From Zanthoxylum bungeanum (lineage: Eukaryota > Streptophyta > Magnoliopsida > Sapindales > Rutaceae): a DNA stretch of 64,000 nt. Made by a program: the position numbers and the translations under genes. This document shows, one piece after another, positions 7,301 to 52,447 of this stretch (the stretch's first letter is position 1; each line of letters starts with the position of its first letter). The notes below the pieces were generated by a model that saw nothing but the letters and a program-made list of their open reading frames with translations, was not told the origin of the DNA and did no database searches. Where the stretch lies: positions 1-64,000 of the forward strand of contig SKCR01035554.1 in the NCBI GenBank assembly GCA_019454045.1, read 5' to 3'.

Positions 7301-10300
7301 CCTTATTAGATGTAGAAATCTGGTACCCAGCCCACGAACTGGTGGCCTTGTCCCTAGTTACTGCAGCATGGAAGTTGCGCCCATATTTCTAAGCTCACCC
7401 CATCGGAGTATATACCGAACACCCAATTAGGCAAATATTGCATAGACCTGAGACCTCGGGTTGTCTTGTAAAATGATCTGTAGAGCTTAGTGAATATTAT
7501 GTATCATACATGTCCCAAGTGTCAATCAAGGGGCAAACTCTAGCTGACTTTATAGCAGATTCATTGGGCCCCAAATCATGATAGTGAATGCGGAGAATGA
7601 GAACTGTTTATTGATGGGTCGGTTAGTTCACAAGGATGCAAGGGTGGAATCATTCTCAGAAGCGAAGAATGAGAGGAGCTGAGGTTTACATTTGGGGCGA
7701 CCAATAATGAGGAGGAATATGAAGTAATCTTGGCTGGGCTGAGGCTTTACGGAACAGTCGAGGTAAGAAATGTGGTAGTAAAAAGTGACTCTCAGTTAGC
7801 CGTTCAATAACTGAATGACGAGTTCCAAGCTAGAGAGCCCAATATTATAGCTTACCTCGTGGAGGTGAAAAAAACTAATATGAGGAATGGGAAAATGTGA
7901 CATTCGAACAAATCGGGCGAGAGAATAATTAGCAGGCAAATTCATTGGCCTGACTTGCCTCATCCATCAAGTGAAAAATTCATCAGGTCATCCCCTTGGA
8001 GATTTTAGAACCAGAAATCGTAGGAGAACCTAGCATGATGGAGGTGGAAATTGAAGTCAAATTGTCTTGGATGGACCCGATCAATAAATATTTAGAATCA
8101 ATAGACTTTCCGGAGGACAAGAAAGAATCCATGTAATTGAAATATAAGAGTGCACATTTTTGTTTGATAGATGAGGTACTGTATAGAAGGAGCTATATAA
8201 TGTCATATCTAAAGTGTTTGGGCTCGAGGAGGCTAACTACGTGCTCAGGGAAATTCAAGAAGGAATCTGTAGAAGCCACTTCGGTGGTAAGTCAATCACC
8301 CACAAAGCACTCATGTAGGGTTTTTCCAGCCGACGATGCATCAGGATAGGGTCGGGGATGCCCGAGCATGTGATGGGTGTCAGAGAAATGCTAATGTGTC
8401 TCATCAGCCACCCGAGCAGTTGACCGCTTTATCAAGCCCTTGGTCATTTTCCCAGTGGGGGCTGGATCTCATTGAACTTATGCTTACAGGTCAGGGACAA
8501 GCCAAGTTTGCGATCGTGGCAATTGACCACTTCACCAAATGGGTAGAGGTCGAGCCACTGTCCACCATAACCGAGAAGAAAGCCATAGATTTTATCAAGA
8601 AGAATATTGTGTGCCGATTTGGGATTCCTATGGCCATCATCACATACAATGGAAATTAGTTTGACAGCACGGGCTTCAAGAAACTCTGTGATGATCTCTA
8701 GATTGCCTTGAGATTTACCTCACATGCGCACCCGAAGTCAAATGGACAAGTATAAGCGGCAAACAAGACCATAAAAATAATCTGAAGGCAAGACTCAGGT
8801 CATGTAAAGGTTTGTGGGTTGAGAAGCTACCAAAAGTGATATGGGCGCATCAGACGACCTATAAAGACTCAACGGGGGAAACCCCATTCTCATTGGCTTA
8901 CGTATATGAAGTAGTCATTCCAGCAAATATCGGGATGACGACCCATTGGGTCCAGCATTTTGAAGTATGACAGAATGAAGAACTCATCAGGCACCACCTT
9001 CACCCGATAAAAGAAAAAACAGAGAGGTCATCACTCAAGGTGGCGGCATATCAGAAAAGTATGTCTCGCTTCTACAACAAGAGAGTCTGAGTACGAACCT
9101 TTCATCCCAGAGATTTGGTCCTGAGGTGGGTCACTCTAAATACAAAAAGGCCTTAGGAAGGCTACTTGGGAGCCAAGTGGGATGGACCTTACAAAGTTAG
9201 TGAGGTCATCAAGTCGAGTGCCTATCACCTGGAATAGCTGGACAGCACCAGACTCAGGAAATCATGGAATGCAGAGATGTTGATGAGGTATTTTCAATAG
9301 AGCATCTCTTAGAATGACTTTCAAAGAGTTGTAAGAATGGCAATAGATCCCAAGGATATAAATAAGGCTTTCCTTTTTTAAATAAAAACTTGTTCATCTA
9401 TGCTTGTTTATTATTTGGATGGGAAATACTTGTTTAATATTCTTGTGAAATACTCATGATCGGGATACTTCAAGGGGTGTATGACAGGTGGGAAAGGCAC
9501 GAACCCCTATGGCATGCTATCCCCGGTGTCATTATCAAACCTCCGGACTGAAACATTGGTACCCAATGATTTACACATTGTTGGGGTTGGTGCTCAGAGC
9601 GCCAATCCGGACCGTATTTATGTCTGATTCATGAATACGAACATCCATTTTCCCCTTAATATTACCAATTTATGGTTGCACCTCTTGTTTTTATATACGT
9701 ATTCAATCTGATTACGATTAGATTGAAACTAAATGTGGTTTAGTGATATGTATATATTAGACAAATGCCCGATAATATATAATGCAGTACACAGTTACAA
9801 AGTTAGTTTGTAATTGACATTGGGAAGTGTCACTGTTAAATGTATATTATCAAACATAGTTCATGGTCAAGATTTACTAACACGGGTCGGTTAGTCAAAT
9901 CCGTTGAGACCAGTACATTTCGTATATCGAGACTTGGTCCGATGGTTTATCCCAATGAACCATGAGTCTGGGGAGACTCGTATAGACGTGTAGGTGTTTA
10001 TAGTGGATAAACACTGAACGATTCACCGAAGATTCTTAATAGATAGTACACCAACGTCAATAAGAATCTTCTCGGGTTGAGTAGCACTTGTGATTCTTAG
10101 ACTTGAGATGTCATTGTGGGCACATGAGACATCTTCTACACTTAGATGGCAGTCATGTCACCGATCTATTTAGATCAGACCTCCGTCTGTTCGTTGGGTG
10201 TAGATAGATCCTCAGGGTGTCCTGTGAGTATCGAGATATGATCCGTCAGTTCTGTGTATCAGAGCATAGGTAGTCCATATGATTAGCAATCTGATAAAAC

Positions 10301-30767: not shown

Positions 30768-31084
30768 TATTTTTTTCAATGTTAAAATTATTTGAAATCA
30801 ATTGATAAGAAATATAAAATCACTAATTAAGTAACACTTCCAAACTGACCATAAAGCCAGGTTAACAAGCCACACATGATAACACTCAATAATATGCCCA
30901 AACTTAGAAATGGTAATGGGACATGATGGACCGAGATTTTTCTATCCCGGTCAATCCCTATTCCGTTATTTTTGGGATAAAAAATTATCTTGTCCTACAT
31001 CTTATCTCATCATGTTAAATCTTGTTTCATCCCGTTTGTTTTGTTCGGTCCCATTTTCAAATTGAGATATAAGAATATGTTCAT
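30768..31084. other. Spacer between Tat-like and Athila elements
   Basis: AT-rich with no coding sequence. The stretch about 30930-31050 (GGGACATGATGGACCGAG, then TTTTTGGGATAAAAAATTATC) may be an old repeat, but no ends were defined. Confidence 0.4.
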
Positions 31085-32010
31085 CATGTTGGTTGTAAGA
31101 TTATGCCTCTGGTGCTTCTCCATATGGTGAACTTGTGGATCCAGCATTAATCTTCATGTTAAGAGTTTCCAGATTTTTACAAATCTGATCCAGCTTGTCA
31201 TTCATTGTTGTGTTGGCTCCTACTTCGTGGAATCCTTGAGTTATTGTTGGCAATTTCTTCAATTAAGTCCTAAGCCCGATCTTCTATTTTTCCATTAAAG
31301 CTCCTCTAGCAGCAGCATCTATTGTGGTTCTCATCAATCCAGAAAGTCCATTGTAGAAGATTTGAACTTGTAGCCATTTTGTAATCTCATGGTGATGACA
31401 TTTTCGGAGTAATTCCTTGTATCTTTCCCAAGCTTCGCAGAAGGATTCTGAGTCATGTCGCACAAAAGATGTGATGTCGTTCCTCGGCTTTGCTGTTCTG
31501 GTTGGCGGAAAGTATTTTGCAAGGAATTTGGTGGCAAGAGTGTTCCAATTTGTGATAGAACATGCTGGTAGTGAATGGAGCCAAGCCTTAGCTCTGTCTT
31601 TCAAAGAATATGGGAACACACGCAGTCTCATTGCTTCCTCTGCCGCTCGGTTGTAATTGAATGTGCCATAAATTTCCATGAAGTTGCTGATGTGAGAATT
31701 AGGATCTTCAGTTGCACTTCCTCCAAACTGGACTGATTGTTGTATCATGTGAATGCATATTTTGATGTCACACGCATTTGCTGGTGATGGAGGAAGTACG
31801 ATACATGATATGAAGCCGTCAACCACCGGAATTATTCTGTCTCGAATGGGAATTGGTGGTGCAACTTTCAAATGTCCAGGTTCTTGATTGTTCATGTTGA
31901 TCAGTGCTTCTTGGCCTTCTCGCCTTTCCATTCTCAACTTTCTGATAGTTCTTTCAATTTCTGAGTCAAGCGGACAGATTTCGAAGCTTCTGCTTCTTCT
32001 CATGTAGTGT
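31085..32010 (-). pseudogene. Athila gag fragment
   Basis: The minus-strand frame 31284-32204 contains a Retrotrans_gag domain: VQFGGSATEDPNSHISNFME, FPYSLKDRAKAWLHSLP, NTLATKFLAKYFPPTRTAKP and SESFCEAWERYKELLRKCHH. The natural start is probably the Met near 32003 (MRRSRSFEICPLDSE), after a short leader intron-like stretch. A stop and a frameshift near 31280 break it, with DLIEEIANNN readable in the next frame. No zinc knuckle is left. Confidence 0.8.
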
Positions 32011-32134
32011 CTGAGAACCTGAAACATAAGAAAACAAAAATAATAAGTAAAAAGAAATGAGACACAAGTAAAGTATCTAACCCCAAAATTAATAGTAAAA
32101 GATAAATATGTCCCCGGCAACGGCGCCAAAAACT

Positions 32135-33802
32135 TGATCGGTGAAATCACACACGTAACGCAAGCGCACGTATCGCTCAAGTAGTATAAATGTATCGATC
32201 TCACGAGGACTTAATACCTATGCTATCAATTTATGAAGCTAAATATCTACGAGTATCTGATTGATTAGATTGTTGGTTGGATGGTGATTTTTATCTAAAA
32301 CAAGTAAATAAAACAGTGCGAAAGTGAATTAGAGGAAAATCAATATTATAAAGCTATATAAGGTTGTGAATCCTTCCAATATCTTTTAAAGATGAAGTGA
32401 TTATCTCATGTTTGTGCAATATATCGGTTTATTAACCTGGAACACGAATATATGCAAAAGCCTCTGTCGATTGTCAGTTGCAAACACTCAAAGTAACCCA
32501 ATTAATCATATGTCTATGTTAACCAAGTTACCTGAATTCATTAAGATTAAGTTACAATTGTAGCTACCCCCGTCCGACAGGTATATGTCTATCCTGAAAG
32601 GAAATATACCTTCAGGAAATTTACCCTAAGGTGAGATCGTGAGTTATTGAGTTTAATGCTGAAACCTAAAATTCATTCGTCAAGTTCATTTTACGTTTAC
32701 CATATCAATCTTATTAGTGGCCAGTTAATAAGAAGCATTAAGATTAAGACTCAATAAATAAATCAATATATTACCCAAGACATAAAATAACCAACTTATA
32801 AATCGGTGATATTAGAATTCATCACAACCCTATATACGGTATTTAGTTACAACACATATCTAGGATTATTAAAGACATAAATAAATAAAACAACATAAAA
32901 CAAACTTGAAAATTAAAAAGGTAAAATAAAACAATAAAATAAAATGTTGGGGGTTAGTGGATTCACTTTTATTACTTCTAATTTAGAAATCTCTCTTATT
33001 ATAATATACAAATCTGCATTACATTACCAACCGACCATATAGGTGGTATCCTGATTTAGTCATATTTTTAATTAATTCCAACCGACCATAAAGGCGGTGT
33101 CCAATTAAGTCAGATTAAAATTAATTTAATTAAGTCCAACCAACCATAAAGGCGGTACCCCATTAAGTCGGGTTTTAAGATAGTTTATATATTATAACTA
33201 AGGAAGATTAATCTAAATTATAATAATAAAAGTTTTACCTTTCACCCCAGCAGAAATAATTTACCTACTCATACTTTAAAGTAAACAAATAAAGATTTAT
33301 TACTTAAAATAAAAATTAAATACAAGAAAGCTGTAAATAAACAAACAAGATATTATCTTCTTTGTATTCTTAAGGAAATCCCCATAAGAAAGTATGAATT
33401 TTTCAAATGAAATCGGCCTCCATTTATAGGCAAAATTTGGCCTTGCGCGACGCGCCGTTGATTTCTGACACATGTACGCGATTTTGACGAGATATTGACA
33501 CGTGGCACGCGGCTGTCGGCAGCTGAATTATTGGCTGATGTCATGATGATGTGATGATGACACACATGCTGACATGGCGATGATGAGTGTCGGCGGCATA
33601 GTAACTACGGCGCGTCGCGATGTGAATTTTCATTTTTGTCTGTTTTTCGCTGTTTTAGCCCCAAGTTGATTTCATTGAATCCTGAAATCTTATTTATCTA
33701 CAAAATAACACAAAACACATCAAAATATTCACAAAACTCGAGAAACTATACAAAACATTAAGTAAAATGGACGGTAAATATTGATGTATTTTCCGCTTAT
33801 CA
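32135..33802 (-). repeat. 5' LTR of the truncated Athila element
   Basis: 1668 bp with TG...CA ends. It has three copies of a motif like AACCGACCATAAAGGCGGT at about 33025, 33080 and 33142. The partner LTR is absent. Confidence 0.8.
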
Positions 33803-35455: not shown

Positions 35456-35920
35456 TTCTTTTTATATGTAGGTTGACTAAATGGGAAGAAACATTTGTGC
35501 TTAGACTAGATTGGAAGAGATCTAATGGTTTTAGTCTTTTTTAGAAATTCTTCTCTTTTTTATCTACTGTCACAATGTCATTATTAGTTAGATGAATGAA
35601 AATTTAGTCACACATTGATGAGTGGTATTTATATCACTATTTCACACTCATTTAATCTAATATTTTGTATAGTTTCTTGAGTTTTGTGAATGTTTTGATG
35701 TATTTTGTGTTATTTTGTAGATAAATAAAGTTTCAGGACATTCTGGAGATGATTTGGAGTAAAACAGTGAAAATTGGCGAAAAAGGGCATTTTGGTAATT
35801 TCCAGCATCGCGCCGCCCAGACCTTCCGCATCGCGACGCCCAGCATGCGCCGAATCTGCTAACGTGCGCCTGGTCAACTGATCAGGATTTGAGAAGTTTG
35901 ACTTTGCTAAAATGCGCCGT

Positions 35921-36345
35921 GACACGTGTCACCATCACATCCAATCTGCTAACTTGCACCGTGCCACGTGTCAACATTATATGCTGCCGACACTTTGACT
36001 TGACACGTGTCGCCTCGTCATCAGCCATGTCAGCGGTCAACGAGTCAACTTTGCCATGTGTCACGCCACGTCATCAGCCACGTCACAAGGTCAACGAAGT
36101 CAACATGCCACGCCAGCATTAGCCAATCACAGCGTGACACGTGTCGCCACATGTCGCAATCCTATTGTGCCGACAATTGCAACACGCGTCTTCGCCACGT
36201 CAGCGCCACATCATCACCACGTCAGCATGACGTCATCAATGACGTCATCACAATAATTGAGTCTTAGCCGCTTGCCACGTGTCGCGTGAACAGTCAGCCG
36301 CCATGCCACGTGTCGCCTTCTCAGCGTGCCACGTCTTACTATTCC
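35921..36345 (+). promoter_or_regulatory. Cluster of 13 ACGT-core motifs in the LTR promoter
   Basis: Six CACGTG (G-box, mostly CCACGTGTC or ACACGTGTC), four CACGTCA, two TGACGTCA and one CACGTCT lie within about 425 bp. Chance would give one or two ACGT tetramers in this length. ACGT cores are known binding sites for plant bZIP and some bHLH factors. The cluster ends about 50-60 bp upstream of the TATA box. The 3' LTR has the same cluster at about 43240-43660. Confidence 0.75.
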
Positions 36346-36393
36346 AGCGTCGCGACGCTGACCTGGCATCGCGACGCTGGCACCAAAAATTTC

Positions 36394-36401
36394 TATAAAT
36401 A
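36394..36401 (+). promoter_or_regulatory. TATA box of the Athila 5' LTR
   Basis: TATAAATA in the context TTTCTATAAATACTGCGCG, followed by a CT-rich stretch (CTTTCTCTCTCTCATC) suitable for transcription start. The same motif recurs in the 3' LTR near 43702. Confidence 0.65.
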
Positions 36402-37690
36402 CTGCGCGAATTTCATAATTCTGTGTGCCTTTCTCTCTCTCATCTTTTTGATGAAGAGAGAGTGTCTCTCTCTAAAATTTCTTTTAATTTAATTTTTTTT
36501 ATTTTTAATTTGTAATTAATTTTAATTACCATTTGTAATAATAGTAATTTAGTTTTTTACTTTTTACAATTTTTACTATTCTGAGAAAGTAATTTCCCAA
36601 CTAGGGTGAAAGGTAATTCTTTTACTGTTACTATTTAGATTAATCTCCCTTAAAAATAATATTATACTAAATTAAAATACTGATTAAAAAGGATACCGCT
36701 ATATTGGTCGGTTGGTAATTTAATTATGGTACCGCCTATATGGTTGGTTGGACTTAATTTGACTTAATCAGGATACCGCCAGATGGTCGGTTGGTAATAT
36801 ATAACAAGTTTATATATTATTTTATGGGAGATATCTAAATTAGTAGTAGTAAAAGTAATTACTTTTACCTTAGCATTTTATTTTATTTTACTTTTCAGTT
36901 TTACTTATGTCTTTTATTTTTCAGTTATTAGTCCTAGTTATGTGTTGTAACTAAATAGTTATCTGGGGTTGTGATGAATTTCAATATCACCAGTTTATAA
37001 GGGTTAGATTATAGTTTGGGTAATATAAAGATTTATTTATTGAGTCTTAATCTTAATGCTTTTTATTAATTGGCCATTAATAAAATTGATTAGGTAAACT
37101 TAAAATGAACTAGACATAGAGATTTTAAGTTTAAAACCTTAGACTCAATAGCCCACGATCTTCCTTGAGGATAGATAACCCTTTAATAGATTTCTTTACA
37201 GGATAGGAATATATCTGTCGGGCGAGGGTATCCATAATTGGAACTTAATCTTAATGAATCCAGATAATGTGGTTGACATAGGAATATGGTTCAATTGGGT
37301 TATACTGGGTATTTGTGTCTGACCATCGACAGATGCTTTCACATAATTTCGTAATCCAGGTTAATAAATCATTGTATTTCCTAACTATAAAATAATCACT
37401 TCATCTTTATAATGGTATTGGAATAAATCACAACCCTAGATCTTTGTGTCTTTTGTTATTTTCTTAGTATTTTCTTTTGTCTTTTTATTTATTTATTTAT
37501 TTAGCAAAGTCTTTCAACCAAACAAACAAACAATCTATCTCTTCTCCATTTAATTAGATATTTGTAAATAAAAGATTCAACAATTAATAACAACAGTAGG
37601 AATTAAGTCCTCGTGGGATCGATATTTTTATACTACTTGAACGATACGTGCGCTTGCGTTATACGTGTGTGTTTACGCCGGTCAAGTTTT

Positions 37691-37709
37691 TGGCGCCGTT
37701 GCCGGGGAC
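37691..37709 (+). other. Primer binding site (tRNA-Asp type)
   Basis: TGGCGCCGTTGCCGGGGAC begins six bases after the 5' LTR. It matches, in inverse orientation, the site at 32110-32128 of the neighbouring truncated Athila element. Confidence 0.85.
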
Positions 37710-37816
37710 TTATATTCTTGAGTTGTTAATTTTGAAACTATCTAATTTACTTATATCTAATTTTCTTTCTTTTATTTTGTAATTTTTATTTCTTTTGTTT
37801 TCAGGTGATTAAAAAA

Positions 37817-38454
37817 ATGGAACATTATTGGGAGATTGAAAGATCACAAGTTTTACAAGAAGATACACCCCAAATCTGGGAGCAACAGTCCGGTTTTCTG
37901 AGGCCTGTTGTACAGCCCAATGACTATCATTGGATGTCAGAACCAAGTAATACTACATTTGCTCAACAGAACTCAATGTGGAGATGTGACATATGTAATG
38001 GTAACCACCCAAGCGATTATTGCGAGTACAACTACAATTCAGGGTGGCAGAACTATCAGAATCTTTCATGGTATGATGAGCCATCACATTTCACAGAGCC
38101 ACATTTTCCATCTTATCCACCATCTACCTTTGATCCTATCAAGAACCAGAACCATCCGAGGAAGATCAATTAATTCACATGTTCAAAGAACAAGAAGCTC
38201 GATTCGATGCACAAATTCAGAGTAACGCAGAATCCATGCAGAGAATGACAGATCAGATCAGACAATTAATAGAAAACCAGAACATCATACCTCAAGAACC
38301 AGTTTCAGATGACACTGATGAAGCCTTCAAGAACCCAGAAATCCACAATGACACCTTAACAGAGGAGGAGGCTGAGCAGTATCAACAACAGAGGTATCAG
38401 TTCAGGAACCCGAACCGACAAAGTCTCGATTTGATTTCTTATATCAGATTCTGA
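37817..38454 (+). pseudogene. Partial Athila gag (zinc knuckle and C-terminal part)
   Basis: The first ATG is at 37817 (MEHYWEIERSQ), after an intron-like pyrimidine tract ending TTTTCAG at 37804. A CX2CX3HX4C knuckle (CDICNGNHPSDYC) lies near the middle, a spacing I associate with Athila gag. The frame stops at 38173. The following frame (38179-38454) has a polar, probably coiled segment (MFKEQEARFDAQIQSN, RQLIENQ). The N-terminal Retrotrans_gag domain, present in the element at 31284-32010, is missing here. Confidence 0.7.
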
Positions 38455-39144
38455 CGAGGATGAAACTGAGCTGTTTGTGCCAACTGCATCAAAAATTGAG
38501 GATGGAATTCTGTATCCTCAAAATGAAGATCTTGGAGATTCCATTGCACAAATGTTTGATGAAGATCTACCTGAGCCAATCATTCAACCAGATCAGAGGA
38601 TGAAGACCTAAAATCTAACATTTCTTTTCAGGTTGACAATTTTGAAACATGTATTTCACAGATGACAGATGAAGAGCTGAATGCAGAAATAGAATTTTAA
38701 AAAATCTGTGAAGAAAAGGTGGAGCAAGAAGCAGAGCAATGGAGGAGCAAATGTCTGACCTTATTAAAATCCAGAGCATTCAGGAAAAACATCGCTGTTT
38801 TGGGGAGTACAAACCAAAGATATCACCCAGAAGCTTGACAGAATGGAATTTCCATTCCAAGTCAAGCACCATACGGACCTCCTGATTTTATTTCTTTCTT
38901 TGCAGGAACCACTGGAGCAACAAAGATAAAAAAGGTAGCACAAGCACTGAATAAGACAAAATTCTTTTTATCACTTTACAGTTGGAAGAGACCCTTCAAA
39001 AGCAACGCTCATGGGATTGTCTTTGATATGACATCCAAAACGACACTGAAACCTCCTAACAGATGAATTTCAGTCACGTCTGGCTGAAGACGAAAAATTT
39101 AGCGCTAGCAGGGAGGCAACCCATGCATTTGTTGTAATTTATTT
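38455..39144 (+). other. Athila interior, no clear domain
   Basis: Broken acidic frames in several phases (for example DDETELFVPTASK-like after 38455). No protease, reverse transcriptase, RNase H or integrase motif was found here or further on. Confidence 0.5.
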
Positions 39145-39999
39145 TTGTATGTGAACTTTTTAATTTTATGTGTGAGTTTTGCAGGAAAAATTAAAATGGA
39201 ATTATCAGGACAAAGCAAGCCAGAACAAACGGGATTTTCACAAAATAAAAATTTGACAAAATCACGAAGATACAAAGTCAATCCAGAAAAGACCGGCCGA
39301 GTAAGAAGTCATCTTTTGGGACGCGTCCCTATGGATTTATCTGTCGCAAGACATGGTTTTGCCGAAAAAAAAAAAAAAAAAAATCCTGCGTCAAAACCCT
39401 AAAGAATCGAGTGTCGCGACGTTAGACAATTTTCGGCGTCGCGACACGCGATCGAAATCAGAGACATAAGCAGAGGTGCCACAGATCTCATTTTTATTCC
39501 TTCTTCTTCTCAAACACCACGAAACCAGAAACCATCGCCCCACCAACCCACCACGCACGATCCAGCTAGCCGAGAAGCCACCAAACCGAGAGGATTTGAC
39601 CGAGATCTATCAAACCATCATCATCTTCCTCTTCGAAATCAATCACCATCACGAAACCGCAAAAGCCCCGAGAACCACCGCAAGCCAACACAAACCGAGA
39701 TCCAACACCATCACCAGATCCAACCAAAATCAAACAAAGCCGAGCCTAGCCGAGCCACTGCCGTGTTTTGCCGTGACTACCAGAGCCGACCTTCACCATC
39801 GACGGTTTCGACCGCCCTTGCCGTGACCGAGCCCTTCCTTCTCCGAGTCAAAACCAGACCAACACCACCGAGATCCACCAGCCGAGACACCACTAGCCGC
39901 AAACCTCACCTTTGTCGAGCCGTGAACCACCAAACCGATACCAGACCAACATCACCGAGATCCACCAGCCACGCCACTGCCAAAACCGACCAAAGATGA
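39145..39999 (+). other. Athila interior with Pro/Thr/Arg-rich frames of unknown origin
   Basis: A frame at 39145-39402 (KMELSGQSKPEQTGFSQ) is followed by overlapping Pro/Thr-rich frames (39476-39826, 39763-39999). A phrase of the form CCGAGATCCACCAGCC occurs twice (about 39868 and 39955). GTCGCGACG motifs near 39412-39445 echo those in the LTR. It could be captured host sequence or untranslated filler; I do not recognise a protein family. Confidence 0.35.
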
Positions 40000-40369
40000 G
40001 ATACCCACCACCGTGAAATCACCGAGACAGCATCTGACCCACGATCAAAACCATCCATGATCAGATCTGATTTTTGTGGATAATTTGTGTGGTTAATTTT
40101 GATAAAAATTGGATGTTACAGGTTTTGAAATTTTGGCAGTAAAGAGGATAATCGAAAAATTAAATGAGTTTGTGGTTGATTTTGTTGAAATTGGAGGATT
40201 GTGAATTTGGAAGTTTAGTGGTGAATAACTGGCTGAATTCTGAGTTTAGAATTGCCAGATCGATGGATTTTGTAGAATTGGGGGCGAAGTTTGCATTGTA
40301 GTGATTTTTGAAGTTTAGTTTTAGGATGATTTGGGGAAATTTTGAGTTTTTAGAGGAGACTCTGTCGAA

Positions 40370-40497
40370 ATTTTCACTAAAAAATGGTCAATTATCGATC
40401 GTGGTAAAAAAAAAAACGTAAATTGAACATAAATTTTTCCTATCGGTAATTTTTCCTGTAAAATTTCAGCTAACCAGGTATTATCTTCTAAACTCTT
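40370..40497 (+). pseudogene. Decayed second copy of the LOG 3' end
   Basis: The run AAATGGTC...GATCGTGGTAAAAA with the following TTCCTGTAAAATTTCAGCTAACCAGGTATTAT parallels the end of the LOG copy and its 3' flank at 41535-41637 (AAATGGTCCGAGGATGATCG, then TTCTTGTAGAATTTCAC and AATCAGGTATTAT). In translation both read KWS..DRGKK. This suggests that a captured module was duplicated, and the first copy has decayed more. The comparison is by eye over about 110 bp. Confidence 0.5.
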
Positions 40498-40942
40498 TTG
40501 TGTATACATAGTGTGAACTTTTTAATTTTGTGTGTTATTTTTGTAGGGAAAAGCACAAACGGAGCATTTTAATACAGAAGGAATTGTGTTTGACAATCAA
40601 AAAGAAGAGAGCTAATTCATTTGTGATGGCTAAGTAAAGAATTAAGTCTTGAGACACATCCTAATGAATTTATACTATGCGAGTGGCGTATTGCATACAC
40701 AATTCCGTTGCCTTATTATTACTTTGATTCGTTTTTTTTGTTGTAATTATCTTTATTTTCGTAGACAGGATCCAGACTTTTTGACCTTTCACGATTTCTT
40801 TTGTTGTTTAGCTAACAATCGTCCTCTGAAAAAAAAAAAACTTGTGCTATTATTGTATTCACCCTTTTCAGGTACTATAAATTCAGCCCGTCATTGCACT
40901 TTTGAAGGCATCCTGATTTGAAAAAGAAATACATAAAAAAAA

Positions 40943-41594
40943 ATGGAAGCCACTTCAAGAAGACGAGTTGAGAACATCTGTGTGTTTTGCGGTAGTACTG
41001 TTGGTACTAAACCACAATACGTAGAGGCAGCACAGAATTGGGTCGAGTCTTAGCAGCAAGGAATATGCACCTAATATATGGCGGAGGAAATCTTGGACTT
41101 ATGGGGATCGTTTCAAAGGCCGTACAGGAAGGAGGCAGTCATGTTTTGGGAATCATCCAAAACCCTTGGCAGAGGCAAATCTTATTGGATCATCAAACGG
41201 AGAGGAACTGATCGTGCCAGGTATGTCTGAACGACTGGTAGAAATGATTAACCGTTCTGATGCTTTTATTGCTTTGCCAGGTGGCTTGGGCACATTGGAG
41301 GAAATTTTTATAGTTCTATCTTGGGCGAACCTGAATATACACCAGAAACCGCTTGGACTGCTCAACGTTGATGGATTTTATGATTTTCTTTGTGTGTTTC
41401 TTGATGATGCTCGGAGAAATGGGTTCGTGTCGAAACCTATGAAAGAACTCCTCTTTACTGCCAGAACTGCTCCGGATCTAATAGACCAACTCATAGCCTA
41501 TGAACCAAAAGTTGACCCTATCATTTCAAAAATAAAATGGTCCGAGGATGATCGTGGTAAAAAGCGTAGGATTAATCTGGATCTTAACCTTTAA
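40943..41594 (+). pseudogene. LOG: Captured LOG-like cytokinin riboside 5'-monophosphate phosphoribohydrolase, intronless, two frameshifts
   Basis: LOG enzymes cut cytokinin nucleotides directly to active free bases in the cytosol. The copy starts at the ATG at 40943 (MEATSRRRVENICVFCGS). It loses frame near 41037, continues in another frame with [12 protein letters not shown], and loses frame again near 41165. It then runs open to TAA at 41594 with SDAFIALPGGLGTLEE, the PGGxGTxxE family motif, and GLLNVDGFYD. Its total of about 215 codons matches the usual LOG length. Plant LOG genes normally have several introns, so the continuous sequence points to capture from spliced RNA. The last residues are INLDLNL. 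The 142-residue open part begins without an ATG (first in-frame ATG at 41223). It lies on the element's sense strand. LOG identity is firm; enzyme activity as it stands is unlikely. Confidence 0.85.
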
Positions 41595-42934
41595 TTTCTT
41601 GTAGAATTTCACTAATCAGGTATTATTTTATAACTCTTCTTCTACTGTTTAAGACATTGGGGACAATGTCTCATTTAGGTTTGGGGGTGAGGTATAGTTA
41701 ATAGTACTTGTTTGTATTGTGTTTTTATTTTTAGTCCAAAATTTTTCGAAAAATACAAAAAAAAATTGAAAAATTTTGAAAAATTACAAAATTTTTTTGC
41801 ATTTTTGTGTTTTTATTTTGACTAAAAAGGTGAAATTGGTAAGAGATAGCCGAGTAAGGAGTTTCCACTCTTGAGACGTATTTCAATCATTTATTTCGAA
41901 ACAAGTTAATTTTTGTTTATTTCATTTTGAATTATTTAATTTGTGAATTCTCCATAATACTGACTAAAATGGATCTTCATATGCTCATTGACAGGTATTA
42001 TCAACGCATAGTAACATACAGACATGAGCTGTAATTGAAAAGCTTGTAATATTCCGTGCTCTAGTTTAATTGGAGGAACCATCTATAAATAGTTATGGAA
42101 TAAAAAAAAATAAATAAAAAAATAAAAAAATAAAGTATCTAAGATCCGGGTTATTAAGTCTGTAAGGGTGTTTTAACATCTAGTGCCCTAAAACCAACTG
42201 GTTTGGGAGTCATTGGCCCAAAGCTCGCTACATGGATCAAAGATACTGCAAAATATTCATATCTGAAGTCTGAGTAATTAAGTTCGTAGGGGTGTCTTAA
42301 CACCTGGTGCCCTAAAGCCAACTGGTTTGGGAGCCACCGACCCAAAGCTCGCTACATAGACGGAAGATATTGTATATAAATAAAAAGTCAAAATTCAGAA
42401 AAAGCAAAGAAAAAATCAGAAAAATGAGAAAAATTATGTCATTGCTACAAAAAGATGTGAAATCTGATAGAACTTTAGGACAAAAATATTACTCTCTTAT
42501 CAACTGCACTTATGACTGTTGTGGGCAAAAATGAGTTGTTTAATATTTTGTTGGTTGTGTATATGAAGAATGGTAAAAATAATCGGAGAATTTACTTATT
42601 CGGTAATTTAGAAAGAAACAAAACAACTAGTAACTTGGAGTAGAAGTTTCACCTAATTAGTCACTAACATCTTTATTCTCTTTTCGCTTGTCTTTTTGCT
42701 TTTGTGTGCATTAGTTTTACTATTTTTTTACTTTTGTAAAATGTTTGTGGGTATCATTGTTGTAAACCCTCACGAGACTACAACTCGTCCACTAGGGACA
42801 CCTAGGGGTTTAAAGGCTTGTTGCATATGCTAAATGCAACCGTAATCCCTACGAAAATGGCTTAGTGAAATTTTATTATGTTATTTTATTCTGTATTTTC
42901 CTCGAGGACTAGCAAAATGTTAGGTTTGGGGGTG
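41595..42934 (+). other. Athila 3' interior up to the polypurine tract
   Basis: Noncoding. Contains ACATTGGGGACAATGTCTCA and GGTTTGGGGGTGAGG near 41650-41690. A second GGTTTGGGGGTG lies just before the 3' LTR, so the polypurine-like tract is present twice. Otherwise AT-rich. Confidence 0.6.
42137..42368 (+). repeat. Two tandem copies of a ~116-bp unit
   Basis: Both units carry TTAACA(C/T)CT(A/G)GTGCCCTAAA, then CCAACTGGTTTGGGAG and CCCAAAGCTCGCTACAT, with about 15% difference. Confidence 0.85.
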
Positions 42935-44995
42935 TGATGAGTGGTATTTATATCACTATTTCTCACTCATTTAATCTAATATTTTGTATAGTTTCTTGAG
43001 TTTTGTGAATGTTTTGATGTATTTTGTGTTATTTTGTAGATAAATAAAGTTTCAGGACATTCTGGAGGTGATTTGGAGTAAAACAGTGAAAATTGGCGAA
43101 AAAGGGCATTTTGGTAATTTCCAGCGTCGCGCCGCCCAGACCTTCCACGTCGCGACGCCCAGCATGCGCCGAATCTGCTAACGTGCGCCTGGTCAACTGA
43201 TCAGGATTTGAGAAGTTTGACTTTGCTAAAATGCGACGTGACACGTGTCACCATCACATCCAATCTGCTAACTTGCACCGTGCCACGTGTCAACATTATA
43301 TGCTGCCGACACTTTGACTTGACACGTGTCGCCTCGTCATCAGCCATGTCAGCGGTCAACGGTCAACTTTGCCATGTGTCACGCCACGTCATCAGCCACG
43401 TCACAAGGTCAACGAAGTCAACATGCCACGTCAGCATTAGCCCATCACAGCGTGACACGTGTCGCCACGTGTCGCAATCCTATTGTGCCGACAATTGCAA
43501 CACGCGTCTTCGCCACGTCAGCGCCACATCATCACCACGTCAGCATGACGTCATCACAATAATTGAGTCTTAGCCGCCTTGCCACGTGTCGCGTGAACAG
43601 TCAGCCGCCATGCCACGTGTCGCCTTCTCAGCGTGCCACGTCTTACTATTCCAGCGTCGCGACGCTGACCTGGCATCGCGACGCTGGCACCAAAAATTTC
43701 TATAAATACTGCGCGAATTTCATAATTCGTGTGCCTTTCTCTCTCTCATCTTTTTGATGAAAAGAGAGTTTCTCTCTCTAAAATTTCTTTTAATTTTATT
43801 TTTTTATTTTTAATTTGTAATTAATTTTAATTACCATTTGTAATAATAGTAATTTAGTTTTTTACTTTTTACAGTTTTTACTATTCATGAGAAAGTAATT
43901 TCCCAACTAGGGTGAAAGGTAATTCTTTTACTGTTACTATTTAGATTAATCTCCCTTAAAAATAATATATTTACTAATTAAAATACTGATTAATAAAGGA
44001 TACCGCTATATTGGTCGGTTGGTAATTTAATTATGGTACCGCCTATATGGCTGGTTGGACTTAATTTGACTTAATCAGGATACCGCCAGATTGGTCGGTT
44101 GGTAATATTATAACAAGTTTATATATTATTTTATGGGAGATATCTAAATTAGTAGTAGTAAAAATAATTCCTTTTACCTTAGAATTTTATTTTATTTTAC
44201 TTTCAGTTTTACTTTATGTCTTTTATTTTTCAGTTATTAGTCCTAGTTATGTGTTGTAACTAAATAGTTATCTGGGGTTGTGATGAATTTCAATATCACC
44301 AGTTTATAAGGGTTAGATTATAGTTTGGGTAATATAAAGATTTATTTATTGAGTCTTAATCTTAATGCTTTTTATTAATTGGCCATTAATAAAATTGATT
44401 AGGTAAACTTAAAATGAACTAGACATAGAGATTTTAAGTTTAAAACCTTAGACTCAATAGCCCACGATCTTCCTTGAGGATAGATAACCCTTTAATAGAT
44501 TTCTTTACAGGATAGGAATATACCTGTCGGGCGAGGGTAGCCATAATTGGAACTTAATCTTAATGAATCCAGATAATGTGGTTGACATAGGAATATGGTT
44601 CAATTGGGTTATACTGGGTATTTGTGTCTGACCATCGACAGATGCTTTCGCATAATTTCGTGTTCCAGGTTAATAAATCATTGTATTTCCTAACTATAAA
44701 ATAATCACTTCATCTTTATAATGGTATTGGAATAAATCACAACCCTAGATCTTTGTGTCTTTTGTTATTTTCCTTAGTATTTTCTTTTGTCTTTTTATTT
44801 ATTTATTTATTTAGCAAAGTCTTTCAACCAAACAAACAAACAATCTATCTCTTCTCCATTTAATTAGATATTTGTAAATAAATAGATTCAACAATTAATA
44901 ACAACAGTAGGAATTAAGTCCTCGTGGGATCGATATTTTTATACTACTTGAACGATACGTGCGCTTGCGTTATACGTGTGTGTTTACGCCGGTCA
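42935..44995 (+). repeat. 3' LTR of the LOG-carrying Athila element
   Basis: 2061 bp with the same ends as the 5' LTR, followed by the CACAT duplication at 44996-45000. Carries the same ACGT cluster and TATA box. Confidence 0.9.
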
Positions 44996-45000
44996 CACAT

Positions 45001-46909: not shown

Positions 46910-48342
46910 ATGGATACATAGGAGTTAATTAAAAAGTGTCGATCCATCTCAATAAGTGAAGAAGAAAGTGTTGATGTTTCTTTCAACAATGATATGAGGG
47001 AAAAGGGAGAAAAAATGGCGGCAGGATGTTTAGTGGGAAAAATCCTCCAACATAAAGCGGTGAATGGAGAGGGATTGAGATTAGCAATGCAACAGTTGTG
47101 GCGAACGACTAAGGGTGTCAAGATCGAAGGGCTGGGTGATAACATTTTCATGTTTAAATTTGGGGCTGAGGTCGATAAACGAAGAATTAAGGCTGGTGGT
47201 CCATGGCATTATGATGGGGCATTAATGGTGCTAAGCGAGCTGGAGGGAATCAGAGATGTAACTAAGCAGGAATTCAGATTTGTTTCGTTTTGGATTCAAG
47301 TGCACAATGTCCCGATTATGTGTATGGATAAAGACATAATTTCAGAGCTTGTGAGTCAAATAGGGAATGTGGAAAATGTTTGGGTGGATAATGATGGAGA
47401 ATGTTTCGGAAAATACGTTCGTGTTAAGGTTTCCATCGACATTACCAGGCCTTTGAAAAAAATTTAAGATTAGCACAAGAAGGAGATCAGGAAATTATTA
47501 TGCCAGTGTTATATGAAAGGCTCTCAGGCTTCTGTTACTTGTGCGGTCGTTTGGGGCACCAATTAAAGGAATGTGAAAAGTTCTCAGGTCAATCTATGCA
47601 TTTGCTTCCTTATGGGCAATGGTTGAGAGCTGTTCAAGCTAGCAAGTTTCAGCAGTGGAGAGGGAAAGGGAAGGGTCAGAATGAGGAAGGGAGTGCGGAA
47701 AGTGATACCAATAAAAATAATACAAATGCTAGGGATGGAACGAGCAATGTTTGGGTCCAAAATTCTCAGGGGATTCCAAGCATTCCGGGAAAGGAGACGC
47801 TGCACATCCGAGGGGATGACAGAGAGGATGGGGATGTGGTAGGGCCGATGGAAAATCAATTAATGCAGGATCAGAAGAAGCATGGGCAGGAGCAGGGCTC
47901 GGTTTTCAAGGGTCCTAGGTTTGGGTATTTGGAGATTGAGGGGAGCAGGTCTGATAGCCTAGAGCAGGTTATGGAAGGTGAGAGTGACAGGACAAGGAAA
48001 ATGGCGGGAATTTTAGGGTGCAAAGGAGTGGGTAAAATAGGAATTGCAGCTGGAAAAAAAGAGGCCCAAGGAAGAGCAGCCCCTTTGGCAGGAGAAAATT
48101 CTGAAGAGCAGATAAAGCCTATTGAAAAAAAGAAGTGGAAAATGAGAGCAAGGAAGGATTTTGGGCCCATGGAATTAGATCAAATATTAGAATAGGGGAA
48201 AAGAAACAGAGAAGAGGATACAAATGTTAGTCAGAATGTCAAGAGAAAGAGAATCGACACCAGTGATGAGGAAGCTAACTCTCAGATTGATGAGCAAAAA
48301 TTATCGGCGGCGACTAGTCCCCAGTCCCGCCGAACGAAATGA
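46910..48342 (+). pseudogene. LINE ORF1 (DUF4283 and zinc knuckle)
   Basis: The likely start is the ATG at 46910, but codon 4 is TAG (46919-46921). The DUF4283-like part (46994-47467) includes GGPWHYDGALMVL and FWIQVHNVPIMCM. A frameshift in the A-run near 47455-47465 follows. The knuckle CYLCGRLGHQLKEC (CX2CX4HX4C) then lies in the next frame (47500-48195). A TAG at 48193-48195 is followed by basic sequence to TGA at 48340-48342, overlapping the ORF2 start. The product would bind RNA as the LINE nucleocapsid-like protein. Confidence 0.85.
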
Positions 48343-51300
48343 ATCTGTTAAGCTGGAACGTTCGGGGACTGGGGAACTCCCGAACGTTCAGGGCGTTGAG
48401 TAAGCTTCTCCAGTTGTATAAGCCAAAGATCATGTTTGTTAGTGAAACAAGGTTGACGGCTGTGCAAATGAAAGTGGTAAGTTCCAGGTTAAAATTTGAT
48501 TGTTGTTTGAGTGTAGATAGAAGTGGTAGGGGTGGGGGTTTGGCTCTCATGTGGGATTCTTTGATTAGCGTCAATGTTAAATCTTATAGTTCTCACCACA
48601 TTGACGCTCTGGTGCATGAAGAGAATGAGGTGATTTGGAGGTGTACTGGCGTATATGGGCATCCGGAGAATAGTCAAAAGCCGCATACTTGGTGTTTATT
48701 AAAGAGATTAGCAGATTTATTTTCTTTACCTTGGCCGTGTTTTGGAGATTTCAATGAAATCCTAAATATAAATGAGAAGAGTGGGGGAAATGAGAGAGAC
48801 TGGCATGCGATTGCTGAATTTAGGGAAGCTATTAGAGAATGTTCCATGTCTGATCTAGGTTGCAAGGGTTATCCGTTCACATGGTCCAATCGGCGAAGGG
48901 GTTCTAATTTGATCGAAGAAAGGTTGGATCGTTTTCTCTGCAATAAAGAATGGGAAAGGATTTTTCGAAATGGGTGTGCTCATAATATCGATTCGTGGTG
49001 CTCAGATCATAGCCCAATTTTGATGGAGGTGAAGGGGAGAAGAGGATCAAGGTATACATGTAGCGGCATTAAAAGAAATCACTATGAGGATAAGTGGAGC
49101 AACTACGAGAGTTGCAAAGAAATCATCAGAAGTGAATGGAAAGAAGTGGGCAGGTGGGAGAATGGGAATGTGGTTGGAAGCTTCCAAAGTTCAGCTGCCA
49201 AAACGATGTATCGGCTGAAAGGGTGGGACAAAGTTGAATTTAGAGGAAGACAGAAGGAGCTGGGTGCATTAATGGAAGAATTGAAGAATTGTAAGGAGGG
49301 GGAGAAGTTAGCAGACTATGGGAGGGAATTAAAAAAGGTTGAAGAGAAGATTGATCAAATATTGAGAGAGGGTGAGATTTTTGGAAGCAACGATCTAGGG
49401 CAGACTGGCTTAAAGAAGGGGATAGAAATACAAAAATTTTTCATCAAAGGGCATCCGACTGCAGAAGGAAGAATCACATTTGGGGTATTGAAAATGATCA
49501 GGGTATGTGGATAGAGGATGAAGTAGAGGTGGAAGGCATAATAAGCGACTACTTTAATGATCTTTATTCCAGCTCAAACCCATCCCAAAACCAGATTGAA
49601 AAAGTTACGCAAGGCTTAAGCTGTCGAGTCACAGGGGAGATGAATGTTAAGCTAGGAGTGGATTTTACAAAGGAAGAAGTTATAGAAGCACTTGCCCAGA
49701 TGTGTCCAACGAAGTCTCCAGGGCCAGATGGTTTACAAGCTTTATTCTTTCAGAAACACTGGAGTTCTGTGGAGCATGGGGTGATTACCATCTGTCTTAG
49801 AATCCTAAATAGTCATGAAGATATTACTCCTTTAAACCACACACATTTAGTTCTAATTCCTAAAGTCCCAAAGCCGAAGAAGATGTCAGAGCTAAGACCA
49901 ATCAGCCTTTGCAATGTCATTTATCGGATTGTGGCAAAAGCCATAGCAAACAGACTTAAGGAGATTCTTCACCAGGTAATATCTCCATCCCAAAGTGCTT
50001 TCATACCTGGACGTCTAATCACGGATAATATAATTGTTGGCTATGAGTGTTTACACAAAATCAGATATGCAAAAGGGAGGAAGAACGGTTTGGTTGCTTT
50101 GAAGTTAGATGTCAGTAAGGCTTATGACAGGATTGAATGGAGTTTCTTAGAGAGGGTGATGGTAAAGATGGGGTTTGACAGCAACTGGATTAGACTGATT
50201 TTGGGGTGTATAACCACAGCGTCATTCTCGATCATTATAAATGGAACAGCTAGGGGCTTTATTAAACCTCAAAGAGGACTTAGACAATGTTGCCCGCTAT
50301 CCCCATACCTCTTTATTCTGTGTACGGAAGCCTTCTCGCAGCTCCTGAGGATTGCAGAACAGCAGAGATTATTTCAACCTTTGAGATTCAGTAGAGACAT
50401 CTCAATTTCACACCTATTTTTTGCTGATGACAGTCTGATTTTTTCCAGGCTGTCTATAGAGGATTGTAAAAATTTGAAACAGATATTCGACAACTACGCT
50501 GAAGCTTCGAGACATATTTTTAATTTTGATAAAAGCTCCATGCTTTTTAGCAGTAAGACAAAGCCGGAAGTAATAGAAGCAATAAAGAGTACTCTTAGCC
50601 TGAAGGTGGTGTCTAAGTTTGAGAAATATTTGGGCTTACCGGCAATGGTGGGGAGAAATAAGGGGAATTTCTTCAATGAGGTTAAATTAAGAGTGGTAGC
50701 CAAGTTATCAAACTGGCAATCTAAGTTATTTTCTAGTGGTGGAAAAGAGGTGCTCATTAAAGCAGTGGCCCAGGCTATTCCTACATACGCAATGAGCGTC
50801 TTCAAACTACCCCAATGTGTCTGTTTTGAAATTCAAAAAGCCGCAGCGAGGTTTTGGTGGGGTTCGTCCAAGGAAAAAATGAACATTCATTGGGCTGGGT
50901 GGGAGAAACTATGTGTTTCAAAAATCAGAGGGGGCTTAGGTTTTAAAGACCTGTCAAGTTTTAATCAAGCTTTAGTTGCTAAGCAGGGTTGGCGGGTAAT
51001 GCAAGCACCTGAATCCTTAGTAGCAAGGGTTTTAAAAGCTAGGTATCACATGGATGTTGATTTCATGAATGCACAGCTAGGCTCAAACCCTTCGTTTATT
51101 TGGAGAAGCCTAATTTGGGGAAGAATGGTGTTAAAGAAAGGGTTGAGATGGCGAATTGGTAATGGTCAGAGGGTTAAAATCTTCAGGGATAATTGGATTC
51201 CGAGACCAGAAACTTTTAAGCCGATTCAAATATCTGAGATGGATGACATAGCAGTGGTTGCGGACTTGATTAGTTACAACAGATGGAACGAATGGTTAGT

Positions 51301-52447
51301 GAAGCAGTGTTTCCGAGAGATAGATGCAGCAGAAATTTTGAAGATTCGGTTGCCGAACAGGTTCCAAGAAGATCAGGTAGTGTGGCATTATGATAAGAGA
51401 GGAATGTATTCAGTTAGAAGTGGTTATCAGATTGCTTTTAGAAGCAATTATCAAGCCTCTACCAGTGGCAGTGAAGGGGAAAACAGCTGGAGTTTGATCT
51501 GGGCTAGTGCATTGCCGGCAAAGATTAAAATCTTTATGTGGAGGGCAGCTAAAAACCATTTGCCGACGAGTTTAAGTTTGTGGCAGAAGAAGATTGTGGA
51601 GGAGCCAAGATGCTTGATATGTAATGCCCAGTTTGAGACAGTCTCTCATGCAATTTTTGAATGTAAGATTGCTAAGAAGGTGTGGAGACTTACCCCATTC
51701 GCAGAAGCTATAAAGAAATCCCAAAATACAGATGCGTTCGGCATGATTCAGAAAATGGACATTTGTGGAGATGGAAAGGGCAGGGAATTATTTATGGCAT
51801 GTTGTTGGGCAGTGTGGCAAGCGAGAAATTATTTTCTTTTTTAGCATAAGCAAGAGGCTGCTGAGAGAGTGGTTCAAAGGGCAGAAGTATTGGCTGAGGG
51901 CAGCAGGAGGTCGGCTGATCAAGGAGAATTTGTTGAGAACTTTAGAAGGCTTGCAGTGGACAGGAAGTGGGAACCACCCCCGGAAGGATTTATCAAGATG
52001 AACACGGATGCGGCTATTGACAGACAAAACCATCGAACAGGGTTAGGGGTTGTATTCCGAGGAAGAGAGGGTCAAGTAATTCAAATTGCAGTTAAGAGTA
52101 CTAACTCTGATGGAGATGTGGAGGAAGCAGAAGCAGAAGCGGTTCTTTTTGGTTTACAAGTGGCTGAGGAGGGTAGAATGAATAGATTGATCATTGAGTC
52201 TGATTGTAAACAAGTAGTAGAATTAGTTTGTAACAGGAAGGGCACAAGAAAAGAGATTTTCTGGACCATTAACGAGATTAAGGAAATGATGAAAAAACAT
52301 AGTGATTCGTTGCGTCATATCCCTAGATCTTGTAATGGTTTTGCCCATGAGATCGCAAAGACAGCCTTAGGGTTTCTTTACCATGTTCAGTGGAAGGATG
52401 TCTTCCCTTCAAATGTAAAGTGTATTGTTGACTCTTTTCAGCAATGA
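48339..52447 (+). pseudogene. LINE ORF2 (endonuclease, reverse transcriptase, zf-RVT, RNase H-like)
   Basis: The AP-endonuclease domain (48339 to about 49040) shows LLSWNVRGLGN, FVSETR, GDFNE and SDHSPI. The T-run near 49380 has lost one base, shifting the frame. In the second frame the reverse transcriptase (49505 onward) has KSPGPDGL, LKLDVSKAYDRIEW, GLRQCCPLSPYLF and the catalytic FFADD. A zinc-binding zf-RVT part follows (CLICNAQFETVSHAIFEC). A TAG at 51842-51844 precedes an RNase H-like RVT_3 domain (51869-52447; MNTDAAI, IIESDCKQVV). Total length is normal for plant L1 elements. Confidence 0.9.

Follow-up and report, generated by a model that had tools for sequence, protein, structure and literature searches.

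Plant LTR elements that have captured host domains are already known. The closest described case concerns the YgdH domain, also present in LOG proteins, which occurs in LTR-retrotransposon consensus sequences of Citrus sinensis and C. clementina and, with a looser filter, of Populus trichocarpa; this result agrees with Steinbauerova et al. 2011, which the study cites (PMC9289625, available in part). The same text describes an orchid m6A demethylase as a captured gene in a plant LTR element. According to the accessible part of a review, most of 1,235 genes captured by LTR elements in rice are under negative selection, the segments in maize Bs1 are not full-length genes, and surveys of captured genes exist for rice and sorghum (PMC13317346). 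The Athila lineage falls in the OTA clade of Ty3/gypsy elements, and an Athila ORF-1 domain is found in 16% of Athila elements (PMC6317226, excerpt). Cysteine-rich proteins of carlaviruses commonly function as RNA silencing suppressors, and one of them causes hyperplasia (PMC12172455, excerpt).

Here we describe a LOG-bearing element in a 64,000-nt stretch of the Zanthoxylum bungeanum genome (contig SKCR01035554.1, positions 1 to 64,000; hereafter the window). A sequence-only reading of the window had known of no LOG gene in an Athila element. Given the reports from Citrus and Populus (PMC9289625, in part), that view is superseded, and LOG inside such elements is not new. What appears new over the LOG-domain elements in print, as far as the literature searched goes, is the pairing of LOG with a gene for a virus-like nucleic-acid-binding protein (NABP), the copy number of the family and the selection on its genes. 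No report of the NABP partner, the copy number or LOG selection was found in titles and the beginnings of abstracts, a body of text with subscription papers mostly outside it, and a search for the NABP Pfam names together with retrotransposons returned nothing.

Structure of the element and its family

Positions 35611-45000 of the window form an LTR element, with both LTRs, target site duplications, a primer site and LOG on the sense strand:

35611..35615, no strand: left target site duplication, CACAT (sequence comparison)
35616..37684, + strand: 5' LTR, TG...CA (LTR alignment)
37691..37709, + strand: primer binding site, tRNA-Asp type (sequence)
37817..39057, + strand: broken gag-derived ORF1 with CCHC-type knuckle (comparison with L012, L028 and L032)
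39098..39190, + strand: remnant of the post-integrase stretch of the pol-bearing relative, including GGGAGGCAACCC and a splice-acceptor-like CAG
39191..40511, + strand: extra stretch of ~1.3 kb (comparison of 22 copies)
40943..41594, + strand: LOG (type-I phosphoribohydrolase family), intron-free, frame-broken in the window copy
42136..42357, + strand: imperfect tandem duplication in the 3' noncoding region, 98-bp units, 84%
42923..42934, + strand: purine-rich tract preceding the 3' LTR
42935..44995, + strand: 3' LTR, TG...CA
44996..45000, no strand: right target site duplication, CACAT

The primer site, 3' LTR and perfect CACAT duplications claimed from sequence alone were thus all located, as was LOG on the sense strand (40943-41594); the primer site would match tRNA-Asp. 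The noncoding part between LOG and the purine-rich tract is long. The two LTRs are 97.6% identical when gaps are included, with 23 mismatches in 2,078 alignment columns. At a substitution rate of 1.3e-8 per site and year, the insertion would be roughly 0.4 million years old, or older if the host evolves slowly. The extra stretch has a 41-bp direct repeat on both sides (39150-39190 and 40512-40552), contains a proline-rich ORF, is found at least partly in 6 of the 22 compared copies, and is similar, towards its 3' end, to the last part of LOG and the LOG 3' flank; it possibly arose by template switching between sister copies. ORF1 is open from stop to stop in two other copies (421 aa in L012, 437 aa in L028), and the window ORF1 matches the C-terminal part of the L032 gag (28% over 96 aa, E 7e-10).

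The window LOG matches Pfam Lysine_decarbox (E 1.7e-28) over its 3' two thirds. It was said to be a continuous coding sequence; its homology is indeed continuous and introns are absent, but the reading frame is broken. The gene measures 652 bp, versus 654 bp in open copies, owing to two single-base deletions in its first part, and as a result the two motifs named in the sequence-only reading fall in different frames. The LOG of another copy, L002, is open and 99.5% identical, and the frame breaks in the window may be sequencing errors. When the genome was searched with the window LOG, all 40 scored places (of 5,829 first-look candidates) matched over the full length at 96-100%, far beyond chance.

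To count the family, we used short marker patterns. A LOG 33-mer, with up to 2 mismatches, occurs at 19,881 places (9,976 + 9,905) in the 3.96-Gb genome, and an NABP pattern at 19,395 (9,693 + 9,702); the reversed-pattern control gave 0 in each case. A third pattern, marking the window type of ORF1, occurs at 1,682 + 1,695 places. We compared 22 copies, namely the window and 21 others picked by best similarity and hence a biased sample. LOG is flanked on both sides by the same element sequence in all 22, so the check for other family members with LOG at the same internal position came out positive. The full 217-codon frame runs without stop or shift in 13 of the 22, and in the 14 with an LTR pair aligned over at least 1 kb, LTR identity is 96.8-99.7%, which indicates that these insertions are young. 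We also sampled 20 LOG copies by going through the pattern list in contig order; 3 of them are open and 17 are not. These copies differ pairwise by 7.9% on average (range 3.7-13.7%), and the family as a whole is thus older than the window copy.

Three other elements were seen in the window. A truncated one of the same broad family lies at 31074-33785 on the minus strand, with a gag protein 67% identical to that of L032 and LTR pieces at 76-88%. Another, at 6509-9231, is Ty3/gypsy-like but more distantly related; its RT and integrase show 23-35% identity to the L032 proteins. Positions 46994-52447 carry ORFs of LINE type (non-LTR; zinc-knuckle, endonuclease, RT, RNase H-like), identified by eye from the ORF list.

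A pol-bearing relative and its NABP gene

A 10-kb stretch on another contig, L032, contains in order an LTR, primer site, gag, PR, RT, RNase H, INT, NABP and LOG. Pfam matches in gag-pol are Retrotrans_gag (5.9e-22), RVT_1 (6.3e-26), a single RNase H region (7.6e-34) and rve (4.3e-18), with a protease match, RVP_2 (0.008), that is under the Pfam cut-off. The 3' ORFs match Viral_NABP (1.3e-6) and Carla_C4 (2.8e-6), and then LOG (3.0e-34), which reaches the end of the stretch. The L032 gag-pol is scattered over several shifted frames and therefore does not work as it stands; since its pol is interrupted, no working autonomous copy was seen. The L032 and window LTRs are 85-86% identical over most aligned parts. 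Through L032, the Ty3/gypsy order gag-PR-RT-RH-INT is present in the family. This order, the 5-bp target duplication, the extra 3' ORF and a primer of tRNA-Asp type, which is typical of Athila, support the earlier assignment of the element to Athila-type Ty3/gypsy.

Inside the window element, there is no match to the L032 NABP, nor to L032 gag-pol beyond its first 125 bases. Loss of pol from the window copy, as had been proposed, is thereby upheld, and the copy is one of a group of derivatives inside a wider NABP-LOG family.

The NABP ORF of L032 is 182 aa from its ATG. NABP-like zinc-finger ORFs lie between integrase and LOG in L026 (2970-3554) and in L029-L032. Viral_NABP profile E values are 2.5e-7 and 1.3e-6, matches of moderate strength that both pass the Pfam cut-offs. 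The protein consists of a basic stretch followed by a four-Cys finger, whose cysteines are invariant or at least 90% conserved in a 26-row alignment; its fold model (mean pLDDT 53.6) is too poor to use. At the three NABP loci that were opened (one of them L026 again), LOG lies ~260 bp 3' of the NABP ORF. Among the exact places listed for both patterns are 12 NABP-LOG pairs on one strand:

NABP-LOG pairs, 786-809 bp apart: C42, C112, C123, C195, C379, C416, C739, C1044, C1052, C1088, C1117, C1206

A protein search of the genome gave 92-100% identity in the 150 places scored of 47,054 NABP candidates. Of 235 NABP relatives found, 120 were listed, most without an organism name; the named ones are from Xanthoceras, Populus, Acer and Rhamnella. 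Lengths of 181-186 aa are common among the 120, and some members map to tree chromosomes. One hint of NABP-LOG linkage in other plants is that P0084 and P0142 come from JGI contigs of equal length, 4,511 bases.

How the two genes might be expressed is suggested by acceptor-like sites. In 21 of 22 copies, the 130 nt upstream of the LOG ATG include a C/T-rich CAG. L031 and L032 also have one ~20 nt upstream of the NABP ATG, which L026 lacks; splicing to these sites would be consistent with their positions. Between NABP and LOG in L032 (~9340-9440), we also noticed an exon-like open stretch with borders CAG and CAG/GT (slash at the border). In L023, a 312-codon frame passes from such a stretch into LOG. 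The stretch could extend one of the two proteins.

Origin, conservation and selection of the LOG gene

To compare the element gene with host LOG genes, we searched the genome with the protein. The search was swamped (150 scored of 45,875 candidates) and yielded two host LOG loci, L053 and L054, which lie on two contigs, are 97% identical and are perhaps haplotypes. In both, tblastn delineates four or more putative coding blocks with noncoding DNA between them. The breaks fall behind the GNELV stretch, behind HVLG and inside PG/G.GT (slash at the break), points at which the element runs on in a single uninterrupted 654-bp ORF. The comparison of exon junctions with host LOG thus gave the expected result, and it fits capture of a spliced mRNA. 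Neither locus is the parent of the element gene, and the parental host LOG was not identified among the 150 scored candidates.

Six canonical plant LOG3-type proteins share no more than 45-47% identity with the element LOG. In a 120-row tree built with a quick method, its 5 own sequences and 99 relatives form a branch (SH-aLRT 100, length 0.79) apart from 15 canonical plant LOGs, the canonical rows being of LOG3 type apart from one LOG8 row. This low identity and the separate, well-supported branch indicate that the capture is old and not an event of the window element. The idea that spliced LOG mRNA was copied into this very element therefore holds for the processed, intron-free nature of the gene, but not for the time of capture. 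A search for relatives scored 7,999 proteins, of which 7,824 were hits; the named ones among 120 listed include proteins from Populus, Xanthoceras, Reevesia and Diplodiscus. Several clusters of relatives have from dozens up to hundreds of members, which is what mobile genes would be expected to show. An IMG/VR scan using LOG gave pattern matches in 3 stretches, none of which was confirmed.

The protein has the features of a LOG: the Lysine_decarbox/SLOG domain and fold, the PGGxGTxxE motif, and the catalytic Arg and Glu. A model of an open copy has a mean pLDDT of 84.7, with a low-confidence tail, and a TM score of 0.92-0.94, by target length, against LOG3 (2a33). In the available part of a study of CgLOG, the proposed catalytic residues are Arg99 and Glu122, and the prenyl pocket is formed by Met96, His97, Lys100, Glu125 and Trp129 (PMC4979012). 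The corresponding Arg98 and Glu121 do not vary across the 30 aligned rows, and this holds down to 51% identity among element-type proteins. In a larger alignment, Arg98 deviates in 8 and Glu121 in 2 of 104 element-type rows, and in 0 of the 5 own rows. The prenyl pocket is altered: in all 5 own rows, His97 is replaced by Ser, Lys100 by Leu and Glu125 by Ile, while Met96 and Trp129 are retained (in 97 and 103 of the 104 element-type rows, respectively). Lys100 and Glu125 are replaced in 91/91 derived relatives and retained in 8/8 basal relatives and 15/15 canonical LOGs.

The label cytokinin-activating, given to the gene at the outset, is uncertain because the side-chain pocket is altered: the element's own copies keep the catalytic Arg and Glu, but three of the five prenyl-pocket residues are replaced. 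Cytokinin activation by the element LOG is possible. Judging from these residues, the element LOG has probably kept its chemistry and shifted its choice of substrate, in the service of the element's own spread. The tail differs as well: among 98 relatives with lengths of 195-260 aa, 78 have LxLxL within the last 30 residues, and 77 of the 98 have it with a basic run in front; in canonical LOGs the motif occurs in 0 of 114.

To look for selection, we scored variants as departures from the most frequent state, read in frame with an open copy, and included stops among nonsynonymous changes (N). Shared variants, defined as those present in at least 2 copies, are not independent events, and membership of the 20-copy samples depended on an exact 33-base match within the gene, which fixes 11 codons. 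In the 20 contig-order LOG copies, private variants have N/S 122/59, or 0.73 of expectation for the mutation classes, and shared variants 53/60 (0.36; Fisher p 6e-4 versus private). Omitting CpG transitions gives 0.73 and 0.33 (p 3e-4). For NABP, where 5 of 20 copies are open, 15 are not and 4 aligned only partly, the values are 141/50 (0.85) for private and 71/52 (0.47) for shared variants (p 0.004). The 22 best-similarity LOG copies have 14 N and 44 S shared, and 20 N (one a stop) and 24 S private. Genes kept during copying of the lineage, with decay after insertion, seem to be the source of this pattern.

Proposed role, rival explanations and known systems

The element's structure, its copy number, the NABP-LOG linkage, the absence of introns, the signal of selection and the catalytic residues kept in the element's own copies are observations; on top of them we place the following proposal. 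An Athila-type Ty3/gypsy family would long ago have picked up two accessory genes downstream of integrase and ahead of the 3' LTR. One encodes a zinc-finger protein resembling the cysteine-rich nucleic-acid-binding proteins of carla- and allexiviruses, and the other is a plant LOG gene in processed form. Selection would have acted on both in the lineages that replicated. The pol-bearing element carries gag-pol-NABP-LOG; the window-type derivative, left with its LTRs, the primer site, a shortened gag-like ORF and LOG, would have to be mobilised in trans. We infer that both genes are expressed from element RNA, by way of the acceptor-like CAG before the LOG ATG and, at 2 of 3 loci, the NABP ATG, and that they help the element persist. 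NABP might do so by countering RNA silencing, a role that the carlavirus cysteine-rich proteins motivate but do not prove (PMC12172455, excerpt). LOG would act on the 5'-monophosphate of an adenine-type base, either cytokinin or a related compound, and set the base free; this base might favour dividing, meristem-like cells, such that new insertions are passed on. We give the proposal as a whole (old acquisition of NABP and LOG, selection on both, expression from the element and help to its persistence) a probability of about 0.6. Its growth-hormone step is the least certain part, because the prenyl pocket has been remodelled, and we hold it to be a little short of an even chance.

The same remodelling could mean that the enzyme has been re-purposed, with phosphoribohydrolase chemistry kept and with some other N6-substituted or plain purine monophosphate as substrate in place of cytokinin precursors; this substrate might belong to the nucleotide pool or be an RNA breakdown product or a signal. 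The invariant Arg98 and Glu121 of the 30-row alignment fit this explanation, as do the changes at Lys100 and Glu125, found in every own and derived row and in none of the basal or canonical ones. Retention of Met96 and Trp129 in nearly all element-type rows speaks against it, as do the rows deviating at Arg98 (8/104) and Glu121 (2/104), and while we take it seriously, we lean against it. If, on the other hand, the tail were what matters, LOG might be a nuclear factor that binds repressors through its basic run and LxLxL, a TOPLESS-binding EAR motif, with the enzyme fold as a mere scaffold. The motif's frequency in the listed relatives and its absence from canonical LOGs favour such a role; yet it would not require conserved catalytic residues, and 20 of the 98 relatives lack the motif. 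We regard it as quite unlikely.

The selection data bear on a different explanation, in which LOG and NABP were captured once and hitch-hike as passengers useless to the element, the synonymous excess being due to recombination or to a small number of master copies. In keeping with this, the majority of the copies sampled lack an open frame (17/20 for LOG, 15/20 for NABP), and shared variants are not independent. However, it sits badly with the depletion of amino-acid changes among shared variants of both genes, with catalytic residues that stay invariant in 30/30 rows down to 51% identity, and with a derivative that dropped pol and NABP and yet has an open LOG in 13 of 22 compared copies; we consider it unlikely. 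There is, finally, the idea of an independent, recent retrocopy of a host LOG in one Athila element. The intron-free window LOG agrees with it, but the common element context in 22/22 copies, the ~20,000 genome places and the low identity to canonical LOG do not, and inspection by eye of the flanks of the compared copies revealed neither a target duplication nor a poly(A) tail belonging to LOG. We therefore reject a separate late retrocopy, which has next to no chance of being correct.

Under our preferred proposal, the lineage that gained NABP and LOG might be long-lived and carry a selected two-gene cassette for host manipulation, consisting of a silencing-suppressor-type NABP and a LOG with a remade pocket, common to elements of several woody eudicot genera. 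This broader statement is tentative. If true, the cassette would be a plant counterpart of a retrovirus with host-growth genes. In any case, a complete captured enzyme gene and a virus-like gene, apparently selected over many rounds of copying, are present at ~20,000 places in one genome, and the family offers a way to test whether retroelements spread by manipulating host growth or silencing. LOG counts in plant annotations may also include element genes, possibly, for example, the Populus proteins now named LOGL10.

Compared with known systems, the family resembles the Citrus and Populus YgdH elements in having a LOG-type domain in plant Ty3/gypsy, and Populus proteins are among the relatives listed here; for those elements, unlike ours, the available part of the report gives presence in a consensus and describes no NABP, copy number, selection, derivative or pocket change (PMC9289625). 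The orchid m6A demethylase, Bs1 and the rice and sorghum captures are likewise host domains captured by plant LTR elements, to judge from the accessible texts, but they involve other domains and other lineages. With Athila, as far as the excerpt describes it, the family shares the gag-pol order, an extra ORF between pol and the 3' LTR, the 5-bp target duplication and a tRNA-Asp-type primer, whereas its 3' ORFs are NABP and LOG. The NABP matches Viral_NABP and Carla_C4 and has the basic stretch and four-Cys finger of the carla- and allexivirus proteins, yet it sits in a retrotransposon and has relatives in plant chromosomes. Finally, the element LOG shares with canonical plant LOG (Arabidopsis LOG3, 2a33) the fold, the PGGxGTxEE motif and the catalytic Arg and Glu, and departs from it in being intron-free and mobile, with changed pocket residues and a basic LxLxL tail.
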